Source of the DNA: a virus
Strand: one strand, 5' to 3'
IMG/VR virus record: IMGVR_UViG_3300010885_028878
Location: 1-23,699 of that record
DNA: 23,699 bases
Within the stretch, counting starts at the first letter, position 1. The number at the start of each line of letters is the position of its first letter. A program made the translations under genes and the position numbers. The notes under the pieces were generated by a model. The model was not told the origin of the DNA. It saw nothing but the letters and a program-made list of their open reading frames with translations, and did not search any database. This document shows, piece by piece, positions 8,245 to 23,003 of this stretch.

Positions 8245-11019
8245 TTAGCCTTCGCAAGAAGCACAAGTTAAAATAGATCGAGCCAGTTCTTGTGCAGGAT
8301 TTGCATTACGTTGATAATAAAGACTCTTAATACCTTGTTCCCAAGCAAAGATCATAAGTTCGTTTACTTCTTTTGGTTTGGTATTTGGAGGAATAAGAAT
8401 GTTTAAACTCTGTCCTTGGTCGATATATTTTTGTCTTTGTGCAGCTTGAATGATGATTTCTTTCTGAGAAATCTCACCAAATGCTTTGAATACATTCTTT
8501 TCAAGATCAGATAAGAAATCAAGATGTTGCACACTACCAGCTTTGGTTAGAATACTCTTCCATGTTTCATCATCGTCTTTGTCATATTTCTTTAATACCT
8601 CTTTCAAATGGGGATTCTTGAAAGAAGAACGAATCTTAGCTAAATCCTTTACGAAATAATTATCACGAAGAGGTTCAATACTAGGAGAAACTTGTCCAAC
8701 AATAAAAGAACTAGAAGTAGTAGGAGCTATTGCTAGTAATGTAGTATTTCTCATGCCATAACCTTTTAATAGTTCTGGTTCTCCATACTCTTGTGCTAAT
8801 TCTCTACTAGCTTCTTCTGATTGTTGCTTCATATGTTTCCATAATTCAACATTCAAAAATTTAGCTTCCATTGATTCAAAAGGAATCATCTTGGATTGAA
8901 GTAATGAATGCCATCCAAGAAGACCTAATCCCAATGCTCTATGGTTAATAGCAAACTTTCTAGGAGCTTCCATAAACCGCATACCTTCGGTTTTATTAAT
9001 GAATTCTGTCATAACAGCATCCAAGAAGTAAATCATGGTTTTAACAGCATCTGTATCTTTCCATTCATCATATGTTTCAGCATTCATTGATGCTAGATTA
9101 CATACAAATGATTCATCAGAACCATTAGGAAGCATAATTTCAGTGCAATTATGTGTAACAAATCCATTACAAATCCAATGATGTTCATCAGAATCTACTG
9201 TAACACAATATACATCTTCTTTACCAACATACTCGATAGAAATTATTTTAAAGAATTTTTTCGTATTATCTCTATATTCTTTATCCTCAACTAATATATT
9301 TTTTCTGTCTAAAAATAATGTATTTTCATTAAATGTCAGTGCGTCATTTTTATTACTAATTATAAGTCTATAACAATCCTGTGTATTATAATATTTCTCT
9401 CCATGCTTTCCATTTGGTAAAAGACTATATCCAGATTTTCTCAATAACTTAATAGAGGATTGCATTCCTAAATTAGATAAAATTAATTGAACTTCCGTCA
9501 AAAAATCTTTATCAATTGATGCCAATGATATTTGAATTGGTTCTCCATTAGAACTAGATTTAAATACTGTTCCATCAGCATAATACAAACCTTTGATATA
9601 TTGCCATTGGGTTAATTCGTCTGATTCCCAAATCCAATCTGGAATATATCCTTTATCGAAATTTAAAGCTTTCTTCAAGGCTTTAGATGTCAATCTTTTT
9701 TTTGCGGAAGAATTTTCTCGAACAACACAATCTACGAACTTTGGATTGTTATACTTTCTTCCAAATTTTGAAATTTGCGTATCATATGTATCACAGACAT
9801 AATCATGATAAGATTGAACTTCTTCTAATAAATCAAAATCATTTTCCCAAATATCAAGCATAATATAATCTTTATGTTGAGTACCGTCTGCTTGATATAA
9901 TCCAAGCAAAAAGGCTTCTTTAGGTTTATGTACACTACCAAATAATCCTTTATTAGTTTGAACAGCTACAAAATCACCAATTTTAAGATCTTTACATTCT
10001 ACATTTTTAGTCAAAACTTCTTGAAAAGATTCTTTCTTTTGTGAAATTTTATCTTTAACTACAACTTTGTGATAATCTGTAATGGTATGACTCATTCCAT
10101 TTTCTAGAGTAATTTTATATACATCTGCATCCTTTTCGATTAGTTGCATCGGCGAAGATTTTACAACTTTTTTATTATCAAATAATAAAAACTCCGAACC
10201 TATTTCATGTAATTCTTTTGCTGTTAATAAACCTAAAGATGATACTACCCTTTGATCTCCAGATACACAAAGATTTGTATGATGAATCTTCATACCTTTA
10301 TCTTTGTAAACTTGAGGCTTATTGTTGTTTACATTATCTGTAAAGAATATATATGGATATCCAGTTTCAAACTTTTTCTTAATTATATCACCCCAAAGTT
10401 TTCTTTTTTCTTTGTCACCATCAATCATGGATTTCATCCATGCATCATCAATACAAACACCAAACGATAGATCTTGAATATTATTTCCTTCTGAACGAAT
10501 TTTAAGAAACTCACCAATATCAGGATGATCAATAGGCAAATATGCAGCAAAAGAACCTCTGCGAACATTACCTTGGGAAACTACATTCATGAGTTTATCA
10601 AACAGTTCCATGAAATGGACCGAGCCTGTTGATTCACCACCAGCAGAAATAGCTGATCCACGCCCTCGTAATGCCCCAAAATAGGCAGATGTTCCTCCAC
10701 CCATCTTGGTCATAATCCCAACCTCAGAAACCTTGTCTAAGATGCCTTCCATCGTGTCTGGAACATAGCTACCAAAACAACTAATAGGTAATCCACGATC
10801 TCTTCCAAAGTTTGAAATGATAGGTGAACTTAATGAATAAAAACCTCTGCTTAAATAATCATTAAATTTATCAGCAAAACCTTTTTTTGCTAAATAATTT
10901 TGTGCAACAGAAGCGATATTAGCATATCTTTGCTTGGCATCTTCACCTTCTAATAAATACCCTCTTTCAAGAAATTTAATAGATTCCTTGTTTAACCAAT
11001 AGTAACTGTCTTTTTTCAT
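8245..11019 (-). CDS. nrdA: Ribonucleotide reductase large subunit with intein
   Basis: A 924-residue precursor; after removal of the intein (residues 251-624), about 550 residues of class I NrdA remain. It reduces ribonucleoside diphosphates to deoxy forms with NrdB. Visible sites are C81 (first redox cysteine, PISCFG), N249-L250 plus C625 and E627 (E. coli N437, C439, E441), C640 in FVCNLASMN (C462), the YY pair at 901-902 (Y730/Y731), and a C-terminal CASC pair. The N-terminal ATP-cone is missing, so it should lack overall activity control by dATP. It follows nrdB and a GIY-YIG gene on the same strand and starts 12 nt after the latter's stop. Confidence 0.95.
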   Translation of the reverse strand: MKKDSYYWLNKESIKFLERGYLLEGEDAKQRYANIASVAQNYLAKKGFADKFNDYLSRGFYSLSSPIISNFGRDRGLPISCFGSYVPDTMEGILDKVSEVGIMTKMGGGTSAYFGALRGRGSAISAGGESTGSVHFMELFDKLMNVVSQGNVRRGSFAAYLPIDHPDIGEFLKIRSEGNNIQDLSFGVCIDDAWMKSMIDGDKEKRKLWGDIIKKKFETGYPYIFFTDNVNNNKPQVYKDKGMKIHHTNLCVSGDQRVVSSLGLLTAKELHEIGSEFLLFDNKKVVKSSPMQLIEKDADVYKITLENGMSHTITDYHKVVVKDKISQKKESFQEVLTKNVECKDLKIGDFVAVQTNKGLFGSVHKPKEAFLLGLYQADGTQHKDYIMLDIWENDFDLLEEVQSYHDYVCDTYDTQISKFGRKYNNPKFVDCVVRENSSAKKRLTSKALKKALNFDKGYIPDWIWESDELTQWQYIKGLYYADGTVFKSSSNGEPIQISLASIDKDFLTEVQLILSNLGMQSSIKLLRKSGYSLLPNGKHGEKYYNTQDCYRLIISNKNDALTFNENTLFLDRKNILVEDKEYRDNTKKFFKIISIEYVGKEDVYCVTVDSDEHHWICNGFVTHNCTEIMLPNGSDESFVCNLASMNAETYDEWKDTDAVKTMIYFLDAVMTEFINKTEGMRFMEAPRKFAINHRALGLGLLGWHSLLQSKMIPFESMEAKFLNVELWKHMKQQSEEASRELAQEYGEPELLKGYGMRNTTLLAIAPTTSSSFIVGQVSPSIEPLRDNYFVKDLAKIRSSFKNPHLKEVLKKYDKDDDETWKSILTKAGSVQHLDFLSDLEKNVFKAFGEISQKEIIIQAAQRQKYIDQGQSLNILIPPNTKPKEVNELMIFAWEQGIKSLYYQRNANPAQELARSILTCASCEG
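9148..10269 (-). mobile_element. Intein with LAGLIDADG endonuclease in nrdA
   Basis: A 374-residue class 1 intein. It begins at C251 (CVSGDQRVV, block A), has a block-B segment ENGMSHTITDYHKVVV (306-321), and ends HHWICNGFVTHN with N624, followed by Cys as the +1 extein residue. Two LAGLIDADG-type helices, FLLGLYQADGT (about 370-380) and YIKGLYYADGT (about 474-484), show a full-size DOD homing endonuclease, both with the acidic residue. All splicing residues are present, so protein splicing is expected. The +1 Cys is also the radical cysteine of NrdA, so the uncut allele would be cut at the most conserved part of the gene. Confidence 0.95.
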
Positions 11020-13214: not shown

Positions 13215-14129
13215 TTAAGACAATGTTACAGATTCTCCATATGGATTGCGTTTAGCATTATACTCTGCATACGAATCCATACCAGCTTTTCTAGCCTTCT
13301 TGTCTTGGAAAGGAGAACCAAAATCAGGATTTAATTTATTTTTATGCGCTCCTGTTTTAATTTTTTGTTGACCTTGTTTCACCATCTCTCGTTCTTTTCT
13401 TTCTTCCTCTGTATTTTTTTTGACAGGAGCAGCAGGTGCGACATTATCGGTGAATTCTCTAAAGGTAATTCTTCTGTGTCTTGGGCCTTTATACTCGTCA
13501 TCTAGAAATTCTAGATATGCATCATACCATTGATCTCTGGGTACTCCTGCTTTATTTAGGATTCTTTTTACATGTGTTGATGTGACCTCATATCCATCAA
13601 CAATTTTTGTATTTGCTCCATCACCAAATGCTGTGGGATCAACATCTTTATTATGATCTTTATTTCTGAAACACCAAAAAGATATTATCACCACAGGCTT
13701 TCTGTCAACTTGATTGAGTGCCTTCGTCCAAATTCTTCCAGAAGGAGCAAAAACTAATCTAGCATTTCGTTCTCTACAGAAATCACCCTTCATAAAAAGA
13801 TTGTGTTGTATAGGATCAGACAAATCATATTCAACTGGTTTATTATTTTTATCTAAATCTTTTACGATTCCATTTTTTAATTTTTCAAAAAATAATTTTT
13901 TTAAATAACCATGCGACAAACCTCTACCCATTACTAATTCGCTATGCAATTCTTTTAAATTTTCTAATGGATGCATTCCTTTATACAAGACATTTGTATT
14001 CAGAAAACCAAATCCATATACTGTATCATCCGTTCCACCTTCCTCTACACTTACAGATAGATCATCTGTATCAATATAAACAGTATCTGGATCTTCTTTT
14101 AAGAAGAAATATTCTTCAAAATTTATCAT
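13215..14129 (-). CDS. Candidate packaged protein, unknown function
   Basis: A 304-residue protein beginning MINFEEYFFLKED, nearly the same as the start of the unrelated metalloprotease at 20903-22087 (MFNFDDYFFINEG). Both resemble T4 internal-protein targeting peptides with a prohead-protease site after the Glu. The middle part has mixed alpha/beta character (FCRERNARLVFAPSGRIWTK, then RKPVVIISFWCFR); the last 80 residues are basic and likely disordered (KKARKAGMDSYAEYNAKRNP). No known domain is recognised. The start overlaps the stop of the preceding gene (ATGA), so the two are translationally coupled. Confidence 0.65.
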   Translation of the reverse strand: MINFEEYFFLKEDPDTVYIDTDDLSVSVEEGGTDDTVYGFGFLNTNVLYKGMHPLENLKELHSELVMGRGLSHGYLKKLFFEKLKNGIVKDLDKNNKPVEYDLSDPIQHNLFMKGDFCRERNARLVFAPSGRIWTKALNQVDRKPVVIISFWCFRNKDHNKDVDPTAFGDGANTKIVDGYEVTSTHVKRILNKAGVPRDQWYDAYLEFLDDEYKGPRHRRITFREFTDNVAPAAPVKKNTEEERKEREMVKQGQQKIKTGAHKNKLNPDFGSPFQDKKARKAGMDSYAEYNAKRNPYGESVTLS

Positions 14130-16821: not shown

Positions 16822-18501
16822 ATGTTTGACAGAGACTCTAAAATGATATGGGAAAACTATTACTATAATAGAATATCAAAATCAAGAAGTTTAAATGAAA
16901 ATTCTGCTGTTGTTGGTATGAATTTGCCTCCCGGACTTGCTAAAACAATAACTGCGTTTGAATTTGAGGAAGATTTAGAAAAAGAACCAACACATAAAAC
17001 TCAACCACAAAATTCTCAACAAGAACCAAAACCAATTTTAAGAAAACAATCAAGTTTTAAAACAGATTTATCAGAGCCAGAATTAGAGCCAGAAGAGGAA
17101 GAAATTCCAGATTCAGATGATGAAGAAGAAGAGCGTATGGTATCATTCAAAGAAGCATTTAACGATGTTGGAGCCGTAGCTAAAATAGTTTCTCCCAAAG
17201 TGATGCAAGGTTGGATGCAAGATACTCATTCAAAGAAAGAATATTTAGATAGAAAAACAGCTTCTCCAGAAGAGATAAGAAAATACGATTCTTCTAAAGC
17301 AAACAGACCTATTATTCATAAAGGTAATGTAGCAGTATTTGAGATTGTTAATAATAATGGAGATACTATTAAAACATATGATCTTGAGGGATACAAAAAA
17401 TTAATTTCAGAAAGACCTAGAGAATTGCTTAAAGCTAATGCAAAAATGGAAAAAAGTGGTGGAGATACATTAGTATTTTATAACACTACACTTCCAGCAA
17501 TTATGGGACTAGCGGTAAACGAAGCTACCGGGGATTTAATTGTAGTTAATACATGTCCGGGTGCAGGAGATTGTAAAATTGATTGTTATGCAAGACATAA
17601 TAATTATATTAAAAATAAAGCAGTTTCTATTAATCAACAAAGAACTTTAAATTATATTTTAAATGATTATGAAGGTTATAAAGAAGAATTAAGAATGACA
17701 TTGCATTTAAATACAATGAAAAATAAAAGAGGAGGAAAAAAAACCGTTCTCAGATTTAATGATTCAGGGGATATGTTATCCGAAAAATATTTTGCAATGG
17801 CAGCAGACTTAGCTCGTTCAATGCCTGATGTATTATTTTATGGATATACAAAATCAATTGCAACTGCAAAAGCAGCAAAACTTCCCGAAAATTTTGTGAT
17901 GAATTATTCAATGGGAGGAAAGCAAGATAGCTTTATTAGTCCTTCTGATAAACAATCCGTTATCATATATCCAGCAAAAGTTTCAGAAAAAACTTCATTT
18001 AATTTGGATGACTTAATTCTCAAGGAATGGTCTATTGAAGATGAAGTCAATATGAAAAAGAAAATTTCTCAAAAATTCAATATACCTGTTAATAGAATTT
18101 TTACTGTTAAAGACGTACAAAATAGTGGACATATGGAATTACCACAAGGTGCTATGATAGTAAAATTACCAGATGAAAAAATTTCAAATTATCCAGAATC
18201 ACAAATTATTGATATAAGAAAAAAAGATCCATCAAAACCAACTAAAAAACTTACGGAAACAATGTCTAAAATTTTTACATCTAGATACATTTATTTAAAT
18301 GGACAAAAAGGTGTTCGGAAATTTAAAGAGGTAATGGCAGCAAATTTTAATATTGATATTAATAAATTGTTGACTATGGATGAACTTATAAATACACCAA
18401 ACGGTAAAGTAAATGAATACAATGTTATTGTTTTACCCGGTGAATCGGATCTTTCTGCTGCTAGAAGAGATGTTCACGTTACATTCTTATATTTACACTA
18501 A
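16822..18501 (+). CDS. Gp88-like cysteine-motif protein, candidate packaged
   Basis: A 559-residue protein. It begins MFDRDSKMIWENYYYN, similar to the unrelated gene at 22096 (MYNKDNLILESLY), so probably a second type of head-targeting tag. Residues ~50-105 are a disordered, very acidic linker. The core (~214-400) has CPGAGDCKIDCYA (C245, C251, C255), VLRFNDSGDMLSEKYF (309-324), and FYGYTKS (339-345). This combination matches the phage Gp88-type family as I recall it; the three cysteines could bind a metal or an iron-sulfur cluster. The biochemical activity is unknown. The C-terminal ~130 residues look like a separate repeat-type region (KIFTSRYIYLNGQKG). It is first in a three-gene + unit. 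Confidence 0.7.
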   Translation: MFDRDSKMIWENYYYNRISKSRSLNENSAVVGMNLPPGLAKTITAFEFEEDLEKEPTHKTQPQNSQQEPKPILRKQSSFKTDLSEPELEPEEEEIPDSDDEEEERMVSFKEAFNDVGAVAKIVSPKVMQGWMQDTHSKKEYLDRKTASPEEIRKYDSSKANRPIIHKGNVAVFEIVNNNGDTIKTYDLEGYKKLISERPRELLKANAKMEKSGGDTLVFYNTTLPAIMGLAVNEATGDLIVVNTCPGAGDCKIDCYARHNNYIKNKAVSINQQRTLNYILNDYEGYKEELRMTLHLNTMKNKRGGKKTVLRFNDSGDMLSEKYFAMAADLARSMPDVLFYGYTKSIATAKAAKLPENFVMNYSMGGKQDSFISPSDKQSVIIYPAKVSEKTSFNLDDLILKEWSIEDEVNMKKKISQKFNIPVNRIFTVKDVQNSGHMELPQGAMIVKLPDEKISNYPESQIIDIRKKDPSKPTKKLTETMSKIFTSRYIYLNGQKGVRKFKEVMAANFNIDINKLLTMDELINTPNGKVNEYNVIVLPGESDLSAARRDVHVTFLYLH

Positions 18502-18507
18502 TACGTT

Positions 18508-19152
18508 ATGCTATTACTTTTCGATCAACTAGTAGAACAAATATTGAGTGAGGCGTTTGGTGGGTCTGGTGGGCAACATGGACTCAGGAAAGGTTCTGAA
18601 ACCGAAAGGAGATTCGTTGAAGCTCTAAAAAGGGTAGGTTTAAAAGCCGTAGCAGTAAGTAGCGATGTCGAAAGAACTAAGCATATCGATTTTACCGTAT
18701 TTCTTAATAAAAATGATGCGAAGGGTAAACCTATGCGTGCATGGGTAGATTTACCAGAAAACCAAGGTGTGGGTGCCAATTCAAATACTGTAGAAGTAAA
18801 AGGTGATAAAGTTAAAAATGGTTTCCTTAATATGGAGTTAAGAGGTATAACAGGTCATCCGGGTTGGCTTTATTCTCAAGGAAATTATATGTCGTTTGAA
18901 ATTGAGGATGAGATTGTAATGGTAAAAACTAGAAAAATGAAAGATTATATAGAAAGAAAATATAATTTTAAATTTGACACATTACCAAAAATAGTACAAG
19001 TTACACACGATCAAAATGCTAATCGTGTGTTTCCTGTTGTCTTCAATCGAAGCGTAGATGCCAACGGAAGAAACGATCAATCGTGGATGACTAGATTCTC
19101 ATGGGATGATATATATCAGAATTGTAAATCAGTATTAGTATTTAAAAAATAA
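18508..19152 (+). CDS. PD-(D/E)XK-type nuclease, candidate packaged
   Basis: A 214-residue protein. The N-terminus MLLLFDQLVEQILSEAFGG contains ILSE, which fits the (L/I)xxE prohead-protease consensus, followed by a Gly-rich linker (17-24). The body follows the restriction-endonuclease-like fold: ETERRFVEALKRVGLKAV (31-48) as the first helix, HIDF with D61, and NTVEVKGDK with E96 and K98, giving D-x(n)-ExK. A later FSWDDIYQ may belong to the core. It could attack host or competitor DNA after injection, or act as a repair nuclease. It is second in the unit, 6 nt after the Gp88-like stop, with no Shine-Dalgarno sequence. Confidence 0.65.
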   Translation: MLLLFDQLVEQILSEAFGGSGGQHGLRKGSETERRFVEALKRVGLKAVAVSSDVERTKHIDFTVFLNKNDAKGKPMRAWVDLPENQGVGANSNTVEVKGDKVKNGFLNMELRGITGHPGWLYSQGNYMSFEIEDEIVMVKTRKMKDYIERKYNFKFDTLPKIVQVTHDQNANRVFPVVFNRSVDANGRNDQSWMTRFSWDDIYQNCKSVLVFKK

Positions 19153-19153
19153 T

Positions 19154-19582
19154 ATGAAAAGTAAATTTTATACATTATTCGACAACGTAGTTAATAATCT
19201 TACAGACAAAAAAGCTATTAAGAATATGATACTACAAAAGTATGGTCATTTGTCAGAGGAAGAAATGCTTCCATTGCCTGATGATCCTGAGATATATTTT
19301 AATCTAGATTATCCTAACATGGAAATGGTGGATGTAAATGAACTATCTAATACCAGAGCCAGAGAATCTGGAATTAAAAATGCACTAGTAATGATATATG
19401 CTTTGTCCCAAGGAATAGGGGAAGGACTAGGAAAAAGAAATCCGATTACAGTAAGAGAGGTTTCTACAGGTCAATATGAAGTACTAGACGGAAATAGTAC
19501 ATATAATATTGCAAAAAGATCTGGTTGGAAACAAATACCAGCGGAGATTGTAGACGAGCTACCTCCAGAAGAAGTACACTAA
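19154..19582 (+). CDS. ParB/sulfiredoxin-fold protein
   Basis: A 142-residue protein starting 1 nt after the nuclease stop. The C-terminal part, NPITVREVSTGQYEVLDGNS (96-115) followed by TYNIAKRSGWKQIPAEIV, is the ParB N-terminal pattern: a short PI.V strand, then Y.V.DGN.xY and a helix with GW..IP. This fold includes CTPase, nuclease and kinase members. The usual helix-turn-helix DNA-binding part of ParB is missing. The N-terminus, MKSKFYTLFDNVVNNL, is a weaker head-targeting-like helix. Its 3' end overlaps the convergent 2H phosphoesterase gene by 4 nt. A partner or modifier of the nuclease just upstream is possible (inference from the tight operon). Confidence 0.65.
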   Translation: MKSKFYTLFDNVVNNLTDKKAIKNMILQKYGHLSEEEMLPLPDDPEIYFNLDYPNMEMVDVNELSNTRARESGIKNALVMIYALSQGIGEGLGKRNPITVREVSTGQYEVLDGNSTYNIAKRSGWKQIPAEIVDELPPEEVH

Positions 19583-20022
19583 ACACAAACTTCTTCTACT
19601 TTACCAGAAAGTATAACAGATTTTTTTAAGGGAACCCATTCGGTAATAGTATTACTTTGTCTGGGTTTTCCTCCATTTTTTGTATCTACTGCAACTGTAA
19701 TGTGTGGCGTTGGGTTATCGCTAACACCATTCACTCTAACGGCAAGAACTTTATGATCTTCTGTAACGCCTATATGAGTAACGTGTAAACTTTCGGTTCT
19801 TCCTAAACGATATTCGTGTGCAGTCCCTTCCAATCCTCCCATTTTAATCGTCATATGATGGGCGAATATTTTAAAATTTGGATTTATACTTTTCGAAATT
19901 TCTGGATCTTTAATAAGCTTTACGTGGGATGCTCTATCCAAAACAACTGCACTATAACATAATTTATTTTTTTGGAATTTGTTTACAAATTCTTCGGAGA
20001 AAAATTTTTGGAAGCTCATCAT
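19579..20022 (-). CDS. 2H phosphoesterase-like protein, candidate packaged
   Basis: A 147-residue protein with the two HxT motifs of the 2H superfamily: AHHMTIK with H56/T58 and TPHITVAV with H107/T109. Spacing and surrounding strands (CYSAVVLD near the start, LAVRVNGV before the second motif, VILSGKVEEV at the end) fit the bilobal fold. Members cleave 2',3'-cyclic or 2'-5' phosphodiesters, and some phage members destroy cyclic-nucleotide defence signals (Acb1). The N-terminus MMSFQKFFSEE closely resembles T4 head-targeting peptides with a FFSE site. It may start at either of two adjacent ATGs. Exact substrate unknown. Confidence 0.72.
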   Translation of the reverse strand: MMSFQKFFSEEFVNKFQKNKLCYSAVVLDRASHVKLIKDPEISKSINPNFKIFAHHMTIKMGGLEGTAHEYRLGRTESLHVTHIGVTEDHKVLAVRVNGVSDNPTPHITVAVDTKNGGKPRQSNTITEWVPLKKSVILSGKVEEVCV

Positions 20023-20027
20023 ACAAA

Positions 20028-20035
20028 TATTTATT
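20028..20035 (-). promoter_or_regulatory. Late-promoter box, 2H gene
   Basis: AATAAATA, TTTGT, then ATG at 20022: a 5-nt gap to the first of two adjacent ATGs. Confidence 0.6.
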
Positions 20036-20040
20036 CGATT

Positions 20041-20052
20041 GTTAAATAAATA
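20041..20052 (+). promoter_or_regulatory. Late-promoter box, RelA/SpoT-like gene
   Basis: GTTAAATAAATA holds two overlapping TAAATA boxes. The nearer one ends 7 nt before the ATG at 20060. It is divergent from the 2H promoter. Confidence 0.5.
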
Positions 20053-20059
20053 TAAACAT

Positions 20060-20902
20060 ATGAATTTTTCGTTTAATTTAATTTCAGATAATTATCTTTT
20101 CTCTTTATTATCAGAATCCCATCAAACAAAATATCTTGACACTCTGCCTGAAGTTCAAAGATTTGATAATATGTTACGTAATCCTAGTATTGATAGAGAA
20201 ACACTAATTGCTGAATTGACACCTATCTATGAGAAGATACAACCTGTAGTAGCTACCACACAAGCCAGATATGAAAAATTTTTAAAGAGGTTAGCATATC
20301 CAAAAGGGAAAAATAATAATTTAACTAATATAATTATGGGAAAACCTAAGACATTAAAGTCTTTGATATCCAAGGTTATTATTAGAAGAAGAAAAACGTT
20401 ACAACAAATTAATGATTTGGTAAGAGCAACAATCATGTTCAGCGACCAAAATGATATGGATGAATTCGTAAATAAATTAAAAAGAAAAAAGGATATTATA
20501 ACTGGGTATGAGCATAAATCATTTGGTGCCGATCAAACATTTGGTTATTATGGATCACACCATTTTTCTATATTATTAAATGGGATTGAATGTGAATTGC
20601 AAGTAATGACAAAAAAACTAGAGGCACATAAAACTGTAGCGCATGGTATATACGACAAATACAGAGAAATGGTTCCACAGGGTTTAACGCCTAGTGCTGC
20701 AAAAGAAGTAAGAAGATCAAAAGGTTTATATAGTAGAGCAAATATTCCTAAAGCTGGAAGAAAAGGAAAACGTAGGAGCGATTTGATTGGTAGTCTTGCT
20801 GCCAGAGGCGAATCATTATTCCTCAAACAAAACGTAATAAACGAAACTTACGATCCTAAATTAGTATTAGCGATATTAGAAAAGGATTATAATTTAAAAT
20901 AA
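20060..20902 (+). CDS. RelA/SpoT-type nucleotide synthetase-like protein, candidate packaged
   Basis: A 280-residue protein. The central part fits the RelA/SpoT synthetase fold: a basic GKPKTLKSLISKV segment (94-106), INDLVRATIMF (117-127, D119 and R122), FGYYGSHHFSILL (161-173), and NGIECELQVMTKK with the expected catalytic Glu at 179. There is no HD hydrolase domain, so it resembles small alarmone synthetases or toxSAS toxins that make (p)ppGpp or related products, or modify tRNA. Residues 1-20, MNFSFNLISDNYLFSLLSES, include LLSE, a good prohead-protease site. The start at 20060 is chosen because of the promoter box; an in-frame ATG at 19979 would lie inside the 2H gene. It abuts the convergent metalloprotease gene with no base between stops. 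Confidence 0.72.
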   Translation: MNFSFNLISDNYLFSLLSESHQTKYLDTLPEVQRFDNMLRNPSIDRETLIAELTPIYEKIQPVVATTQARYEKFLKRLAYPKGKNNNLTNIIMGKPKTLKSLISKVIIRRRKTLQQINDLVRATIMFSDQNDMDEFVNKLKRKKDIITGYEHKSFGADQTFGYYGSHHFSILLNGIECELQVMTKKLEAHKTVAHGIYDKYREMVPQGLTPSAAKEVRRSKGLYSRANIPKAGRKGKRRSDLIGSLAARGESLFLKQNVINETYDPKLVLAILEKDYNLK

Positions 20903-22087
20903 TTATTGATTCAGGAAAGCTCTTTGCTTGTCGCTTATTGTTTTGACTGGATTCATTAAATTAATGATCATCCTACGATGAGTCATGGGTAATTTAAAGA
21001 AGTCATCAATTGCAGTTGCCCACAATTCATCAGGACTAGAAAGACCATAAGCATTATTCCAATTAACCATTTTATTTAAAAATTCTTTAAAATGCATTCC
21101 TGCCTTCCCCTGCAATAAAGTTTCGAGTTTTGATTTGGGAACGACACGCTTAGAGCTAAACTTTAAATAAAGTTCTTTTATTTTATTTAAAATTATTTCT
21201 ATTACATTAGTTTGCATACCAGCACAAGCAAGCTTTGCAAAGTTATTATTTTCTATGTCTTGTTCTAATATAGAGAATGCCTGATCAGAATCATCAGAAA
21301 GATTATCGACTATGGAATCGAAAAAAACATATGCGATATTATCCGAATCGACTAAAAGATCATCATGAATAGAATGGATTTTATCGTCTTTTATTTTTAA
21401 AGAGGTAAGACTCTTAACGATTACTTCCATGATTCTATTAGAGATCTTATTTTTGGCTTCGTCTTCGTCATAATCCATACCATTCATTAATCGCATAATG
21501 TCAGGAATTTTTGCCATAGAGTTTATCGTATAAGTAGTATATGCTCTTATTCTAAGAAACTCTCTTTTGAAAACCTCTTCGTGTTTAACTTTAGAGGGGA
21601 TAGTTTTTAAAACTTCATTATAAAGTTTTGTAACAGTTTCATTAAATTCTTTTGAATGACCAAACATCCAAAGATGCGCCCATTCATGAACGATAATTTT
21701 TTTTGTTCCTTCCGAAAAATACATTAAAGATTCATAATCAATCTTCATATATCTACGACTACGAAAGGCCGTACCACCAACACCACCTTGTTTAAGACCA
21801 GTGTTAAAATTTTCTACGTCCTGTAAATTGGCGATTATTAAATTACAATGCATACTAGGAAATCCTATTGCTCCGATATCTCTCTTAGCATCTGCTAATA
21901 ATTGTCCTATCCTTCCTAAATTAACTTTTAATTTATGAGCAAGTTCAGCATCAGTTAAACCTATACTAGATGCCAAACTATTTTCATAAAAAACAGAAAA
22001 CATTGGAAAATCTTTTAGATGAGTATTGTGAGGGGAATTTCTAAACTTACCCTCATTTATAAAAAAATAATCGTCGAAGTTAAACAT
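20903..22087 (-). CDS. HExxH metalloprotease-like protein, candidate packaged
   Basis: A 394-residue protein. Residues 132-148 read IVHEWAHLWMFGHSKEF: H134, E135 and H138 form the zincin motif, and H144 is at the metzincin-like spacing (third ligand ten residues after the first). The N-terminus MFNFDDYFFINEG matches the start of the unknown protein at 13215 and looks like a capsid-targeting peptide cleaved after Glu. There is no signal peptide or membrane helix, so action inside the host cell (or in the head) is expected. The C-terminal ~240 residues are helical and unassigned. It follows the 22096 gene by 8 nt and shares its late box. Confidence 0.72.
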   Translation of the reverse strand: MFNFDDYFFINEGKFRNSPHNTHLKDFPMFSVFYENSLASSIGLTDAELAHKLKVNLGRIGQLLADAKRDIGAIGFPSMHCNLIIANLQDVENFNTGLKQGGVGGTAFRSRRYMKIDYESLMYFSEGTKKIIVHEWAHLWMFGHSKEFNETVTKLYNEVLKTIPSKVKHEEVFKREFLRIRAYTTYTINSMAKIPDIMRLMNGMDYDEDEAKNKISNRIMEVIVKSLTSLKIKDDKIHSIHDDLLVDSDNIAYVFFDSIVDNLSDDSDQAFSILEQDIENNNFAKLACAGMQTNVIEIILNKIKELYLKFSSKRVVPKSKLETLLQGKAGMHFKEFLNKMVNWNNAYGLSSPDELWATAIDDFFKLPMTHRRMIINLMNPVKTISDKQRAFLNQ

Positions 22088-22911: not shown

Positions 22912-23003
22912 ATGCGCTTGCCGCATATTGCGGAAGGCGCATCCCCCCGTGGGGGGGGGAGGCCAATGTTCCACGTGGAACATTCCCGACCCTATAGGTT
23001 GGG
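22912..23003. repeat. Array of four consecutive palindromes
   Basis: Four dyad elements lie end to end. First, ATGCGC/GCGCAT with an inner CCGCA/TGCGG (22912-22942). Second, six C facing a run of nine G (22943-22959). Third, a 20-bp perfect palindrome (22965-22984). Fourth, CCCGACC/GGTTGGG with loop CTATA, including one G-T pair (22985-23003). Such packing suggests a replication, partition or recombination locus. Confidence 0.65.
22965..22984. other. parS-like ParB binding site
   Basis: AATGTTCCACGTGGAACATT is a perfect 20-bp palindrome whose 16-bp centre TGTTCCACGTGGAACA equals the parS form I recall from Pseudomonas-type chromosomes, a variant of the general TGTTTCACGTGAAACA. parS sites are bound by chromosomal ParB (Spo0J). 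The ParB-like protein at 19154 lacks a DNA-binding part, so host ParB is the likelier ligand. Confidence 0.6.

Follow-up and report, generated by a model that had tools for sequence, protein, structure and literature searches.

The DNA analysed here, hereafter the window, is a stretch of 23,699 nucleotides (IMG/VR record IMGVR_UViG_3300010885_028878). This 23.7-kb virus fragment starts inside a T4-type gp23 major capsid gene, which places the source phage in the T4 superfamily, and its other genes include a gp5-like baseplate gene, thyX, an nrdB-like gene (named from sequence only) and an intein-bearing nrdA (8245-11019, minus strand), whose intein carries a LAGLIDADG homing endonuclease. Neither a tRNA nor any Rfam family was detected in the window. 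The gene under study, encoding a 2H phosphoesterase, has an intact reading frame whose product begins MMSFQKFFSEE; it is convergent with a ParB_N-like gene (4-bp overlap) and divergent from a RelA/SpoT-like gene across a gap of 37 bp (20023-20059). The relevant features are as follows.

13215-14129, minus strand: gene for a protein of unknown function with a similar N-terminal tag, MINFEEYFFLKE
16822-18501, plus strand: GP88-family gene; L012 and L040, two relatives, likewise have one adjoining the 2H gene
19579-20022, minus strand: 2H phosphoesterase gene, CPD type, 147 aa (ORF, alignment, profile matches, fold model)
19651-19668, minus strand: K119-P-x-x-S123-N124 motif of the 2H family (S123 and N124 without variation, K119 and P120 conserved in 90% or more), within the tRNA_lig_CPD match
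19696-19704, minus strand: second HxT motif, H107-I-T109 (HIT), invariant in 43 sequences
19849-19857, minus strand: first HxT motif, H56-M-T58 (HMT), H56 and T58 invariant in 43 sequences
19963-20022, minus strand: N-terminal extension, residues 1-20 (model confidence 61-66; absent from relatives L007, L012, L013 and L040; alignable with T4 IPIII)
20028-20033, minus strand: TAAATA element, T4-late-promoter-like, 11 nt upstream of the 2H start
20060-20902, plus strand: RelA/SpoT-like gene (PF04607, E 3.9e-8), divergent neighbour, association not conserved
20903-22087, minus strand: YgjP/SprT-like metallopeptidase gene with a similar N-terminal tag, MFNFDDYFFINE

The initial annotation had described a RelA/SpoT-like gene alongside the 2H gene, divergent from it and with near-abutting promoters, and the divergent gene pair was borne out, the PF04607 match being real and a TAAATA element lying close to the start codon on each side of the 37-bp gap. 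The nucleotide-signal theme that had been read into the pair did not hold up. RelA/SpoT was found in none of the 24 other 2H-bearing records, and the three phages with relatives of the window RelA/SpoT gene all lack this 2H; since the two never occurred together in the other phages tested, the divergent pair is no conserved unit. In phage phiN3 a RelA/SpoT relative shares its neighbourhood with a tRNA nucleotidyltransferase and a peptidyl-tRNA hydrolase, which if anything points to a tRNA theme.

Of the 27 window genes, 15 (0.6 expected) have a TAAATA that starts 9-13 nt, mostly exactly 11, before the start codon; it may be either T4-late-promoter-like or a translation signal, and were it a promoter, the mRNAs would be nearly leaderless. 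Its use as a late-gene marker was rejected, since nrdB and clpP have it as well, at slightly different spacing, and it thus separates no gene classes. At 18508-19152 the plus strand encodes a possible PD-(D/E)xK nuclease-like protein (assigned by eye) whose N-terminus is of the ILSE type; distant relatives of this protein directly follow the 2H gene in L026, L028, L029 and L060. Between 22500 and 23699 the GC content climbs from a value near 31% to one near 49%. This stretch has TGTTCCACGTGGAACA at 22967-22982, a perfect parS-like site for ParB binding, and may be a chimeric end of the contig that contains bacterial DNA.

Motifs and predicted fold

The two HxT motifs, described as intact in the initial annotation, are among nine invariant positions in the alignment of 43 relatives (L28, H56, T58, N103, H107, I108, T109, S123 and N124). 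AlphaFold2 modelled the protein from 39 sequences with a pLDDT of 91.8, and residues 1-20, at 61-66 compared with more than 90 elsewhere, form the sole notable ill-defined part. The features that define the 2H superfamily, two HxT/S motifs and a bilobal beta fold, were recovered by the alignment, the model and Foldseek matches to 2H enzymes, and the identification of the product as a 2H enzyme stands. Sequence comparison of the single protein was less informative: its sole Pfam match is a weak one to PF08302 tRNA_lig_CPD (E 0.0084; 16.1 bits, cut-off 23), it matches PHROG 36523, of unknown function, at 3.7e-6, PADLOC and NCBIfam returned nothing useful for it, and phmmer and profile searches of PDB sequences gave chance matches only.

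In the Foldseek comparison with the PDB, CNPase ranked first (E 6e-4), followed by LigT, a fungal tRNA ligase (6u05) and Acb1 (7t27; prob 0.72, E 3.4e-2). Among viral models the top matches were a CroV protein (771 aa) and a Marseillevirus RNA ligase (765 aa), with a predicted Acb1 at rank 12 and rotavirus VP3 models low down. The E-values of these fold matches are weak and the CPD matches span chiefly the C-terminal half; with CNPase nearest and Acb1 a distant fold neighbour, the modelled structure points toward RNA-end enzymes and away from Acb1.

Relatives, fusions and gene neighbourhoods

When viral contigs were searched with the window protein alone no relatives were found, and the family search needed an alignment built with LR756511 and crAss relatives as seeds. 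A tblastn search in phages gave crAss-like phage proteins and one protein of the 595-kb phage LR756511, and the seeded alignment search retrieved 80 IMG/VR loci with 27-46% identity; in a single scan of bacterial and archaeal genomes no relative was confirmed. Within the family the tree did not resolve the nearest relatives. All 39 scanned members matched PF08302 at E <= 0.05 (best 1.8e-7), and L002 (35.8 bits), L081 (27.7), L080 (26.6) and L024 (25.5) exceeded its curated cut-off of 23 bits.

Several relatives are fusion proteins. The 2H domain is joined to a P-loop AAA_33 kinase in L027, L037 and others, the best solved relative of this kinase being T4 polynucleotide kinase (weak, E 0.0047); to a CCA tRNA nucleotidyltransferase in L016, L051 and others (E 1.2e-36 to 1miv); to a HAD_SAK_1-like RNA-repair phosphatase in L024 (24.7 bits, slightly under the cut-off of 25.6); and to an ART-PolyVal domain in L070. 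In some relatives it closes large proteins, 1400-2700 aa long, that also contain GNAT and CCA-enzyme domains. Such proteins occur in L014, L015, L026 and L047, where a kinase-like domain was also recognized by eye, and L047 has a second 2H domain of the 2_5_RNA_ligase2/Acb1-like type.

Some relatives also have genes for such enzymes in the neighbourhood of the 2H. In L083/L086 a PHA02142 OB-domain protein, the 2H, a PF09414 RNA ligase and a CCA enzyme follow one another with a kinase upstream, and the same OB domain (PF21189) starts the RNA ligase of L040. The order in L040 is kinase, polymerase, clamp, clamp loader, 2H, GP88, RNA ligase and cREC (polymerase and clamp by eye), with the kinase, RNA ligase and cREC genes all within about 5 kb; proximity of 2H to GP88 is common to the window, L012 and L040, and a crAss relative has its 2H near a TROVE gene. 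In a permutation test over lineages, RNA-ligase proximity (3 of 8) did not reach significance (P 0.19). We thus use it as support only, and the fusions carry the RNA-repair argument. Upstream of the kinase-2H genes in L037, L042, L045, L050 and L062 a TAnnTTTG-like sequence lies immediately before the ATG; TAnnTTTG is a typical Bacteroidota promoter sequence, and these upstream ends suggest Bacteroidota hosts for the five loci.

Proposed role in RNA-end healing

We consider it probable that the window gene encodes a stand-alone CPD-type 2H enzyme which opens 2',3'-cyclic phosphates of RNA, such as those of tRNA halves, and which is packaged and injected by virtue of a head tag. Action on RNA cyclic-phosphate ends had at first been offered as a fallback, and it now gains support from the PF08302 matches throughout the scanned members, the RNA-repair fusions and the CNPase-first fold ranking. 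The enzyme would act at RNA 3' ends, chiefly on tRNA halves generated by host anticodon nucleases or HEPN-type RNases, and, by analogy with CNPase and the fungal Trl1 CPD, would leave a 2'-phosphate, an end that could allow a kinase and an RNA ligase to reseal the RNA. In this tRNA-repair sense the 2H may be an anti-defence enzyme. The kinase/RNA-ligase linkage of the CPD type is present in relatives through fusion or neighbourhood; since neither a kinase nor an RNA ligase was seen in the 23.7-kb fragment, we can only infer such partners for the window enzyme. Two points count against this reading: KptA/Tpt1, the 2'-phosphate remover, was absent from all 26 related records searched, and ATP-grasp ligases require free 3' hydroxyls according to Iyer 2021 (PMC7824862). 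RtcB was sought as well and was not found.

The N-terminal tag and possible packaging

The first ten residues of the protein, MMSFQKFFSE, look like the capsid-targeting sequences of T4 and may include a cleavage site for the prohead protease, directly following FSE. T4 IPIII and IPII start with MKTYQEFIAE/A (slash, cleavage), which aligns residue for residue with the window tag. In the IPIII tag, targeting depends mainly on residues 4 and 7 and processing on residues 8 and 10, the cut falling after L/I-x-E (PMC9026906). The window protein has the corresponding aromatics at 4 and 7 (F4, F7), a hydrophobic residue at 8 (F8) and Glu at 10 (E10), an agreement that backs the earlier reading of a head-type tag (MSFQKFFSEE); in place of the strict L/I-x-E protease site it has F-S-E, a conservative change. 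The LR756511 relative starts in a similar way, with MMNFAQWVENE. Judged from these residues, the window 2H carries a probable capsid-targeting tag, which would most likely direct the enzyme to the interior of the prohead for possible cleavage by a gp21-type protease (FSE/E), and the packaged enzyme would then enter the next host alongside the DNA.

A competing account disputes delivery only: the CPD-type RNA-end enzyme would be made during infection and stay unpackaged, its extension being an ordinary helix. It draws on the close relatives L007, L012, L013 and L040, whose sequences open with strand 1, no tag preceding it, and whose genes have replication genes as neighbours; since several close relatives are tagless, the tag looks like a lineage-specific addition. 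Moreover, the annotated start of T4 Acb1, MMEFKDF, is similar to the window tag, and T4 Acb1 is not known to be a virion protein. Strict aromatic-4/7-Glu tags occurred at chance level over all loci (5 seen, 4.4 expected), without enrichment. However, aromatics at both 4 and 7 were present in 4 of 30 window ORFs, the metallopeptidase among them, as against 0.27 expected (P 1.5e-4), a pattern taken from published IPIII data but picked after the tag was seen. Likewise, [LIF]xE at positions 5-10 was found in 198 of 885 ORFs of the related loci compared with 9% internally, 1 of 43 E. coli proteins and 5 of 31 T4 early genes. On this balance we regard an unpackaged enzyme as rather unlikely.

A wider form of the packaging proposal is put forward tentatively. 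An RNA-end-healing enzyme pre-packed in the head and injected with the DNA might let tRNA repair start before phage gene expression, and the separate tagged genes (2H, metallopeptidase, perhaps also RelA/SpoT-like and GP88) might represent a disassembled polyvalent toolkit. Were the tag to function, the phage would bring along a tRNA-repair counter-defence packed in advance, with no need for prior expression, which would matter against fast-acting anticodon nucleases.

Other possible activities

The headline of the initial annotation, an Acb1-like anti-CBASS nuclease that cleaves cyclic oligonucleotide signals, now appears improbable. The window protein has the superfamily and the HxT tetrad in common with Acb1, which also appears in both fold lists, and a strand-1 Tyr apparently corresponds (Acb1 Y12, window Y23; by eye). 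However, PF23474 was matched by none of the 39 members, while the positive control T4 gp57B scored 2.6e-60; the hhalign probability was 8-13%, profile kinship thus being near nil; no aromatic residue was seen opposite W74 and F107 of the Acb1 cradle in weak alignments inspected by eye; and the fusion partners of the family are RNA-repair enzymes.

We also give little credence to degradation of linear signals, 2'-5' oligoadenylate-like or other, by an injected enzyme, or to a Usb1-like RNase. These activities were proposed for polyvalent-type 2H domains on the grounds that such versions were never seen with RNA ligases (Iyer 2017, PMC5512222), and the rotavirus VP3 models in the viral fold list and the fusion of L070 to an ART domain of the polyvalent kind would agree with them. 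In the present family, however, ligases, kinase, CCA enzyme and HAD_SAK are fused to the 2H or lie nearby, links of the sort that were missing there. Some 2H enzymes have ADP-ribose 1'',2''-cyclic-phosphate phosphodiesterase activity. Such a step downstream of KptA/Tpt1, a 2H acting after KptA being noted in PMC7824862, is very improbable here, given that KptA/Tpt1 was found in 0 of 26 related records.

Comparison with known systems

Nearest among described enzymes are the fungal Trl1 CPD (PF08302) and vertebrate CNPase, which share the 2H fold and the two HxT motifs with the window protein, and the kinase-CPD half of Trl1 is mirrored by the polynucleotide-kinase-like fusions of the family relatives. 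In contrast to these enzymes, the window 2H is viral and stand-alone, with a core of about 125 aa, a head-type tag, no fused ligase and a score below the Pfam cut-off. Acb1 (T4 gp57B) is alike in 2H superfamily, HxT tetrad, similar size and a short N-terminal extension with two Phe, but sequence and profile kinship is undetectable, the window family conserves N103, KPxxSN and W129, and the context differs. With T4 IPII and IPIII the tag shares aromatic 4, Phe 7, hydrophobic 8 and Glu 10; unlike in T4 IPI, IPII and IPIII, the cargo in the window is an enzyme and the cleavage motif has Phe instead of Leu/Ile.

Polyvalent proteins repeatedly feature 2H, RelA/SpoT, ParB-like and metallopeptidase domains, which serve there as weapons delivered by the virion (Iyer 2017, PMC5512222). 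The 2H relatives inside proteins of 1400-2700 aa resemble this organization, whereas in the window the domains are separate genes and the 2H family is tied to RNA-repair enzymes. That study saw no RNA-ligase link and left the role of virion-associated phage 2H domains open; the family fusions described here supply RNA-repair links where the opposite had been argued for polyvalent-type 2H (PMC5512222). For phage 2H domains, a role has been proposed in removing 2',3'-cyclic phosphates to serve ATP-grasp RNA ligases (Iyer 2021, PMC7824862; Iyer 2022, PMC9503650), and the accessible parts of these two papers describe neither CCA-enzyme-2H or kinase-2H fusions nor a T4-type tag. In summary, phage 2H enzymes in RNA repair are already published, and what is new here is a stand-alone, probably virion-delivered CPD, whose function is directly testable through the fusions of its family to a kinase, a CCA enzyme and a repair phosphatase.
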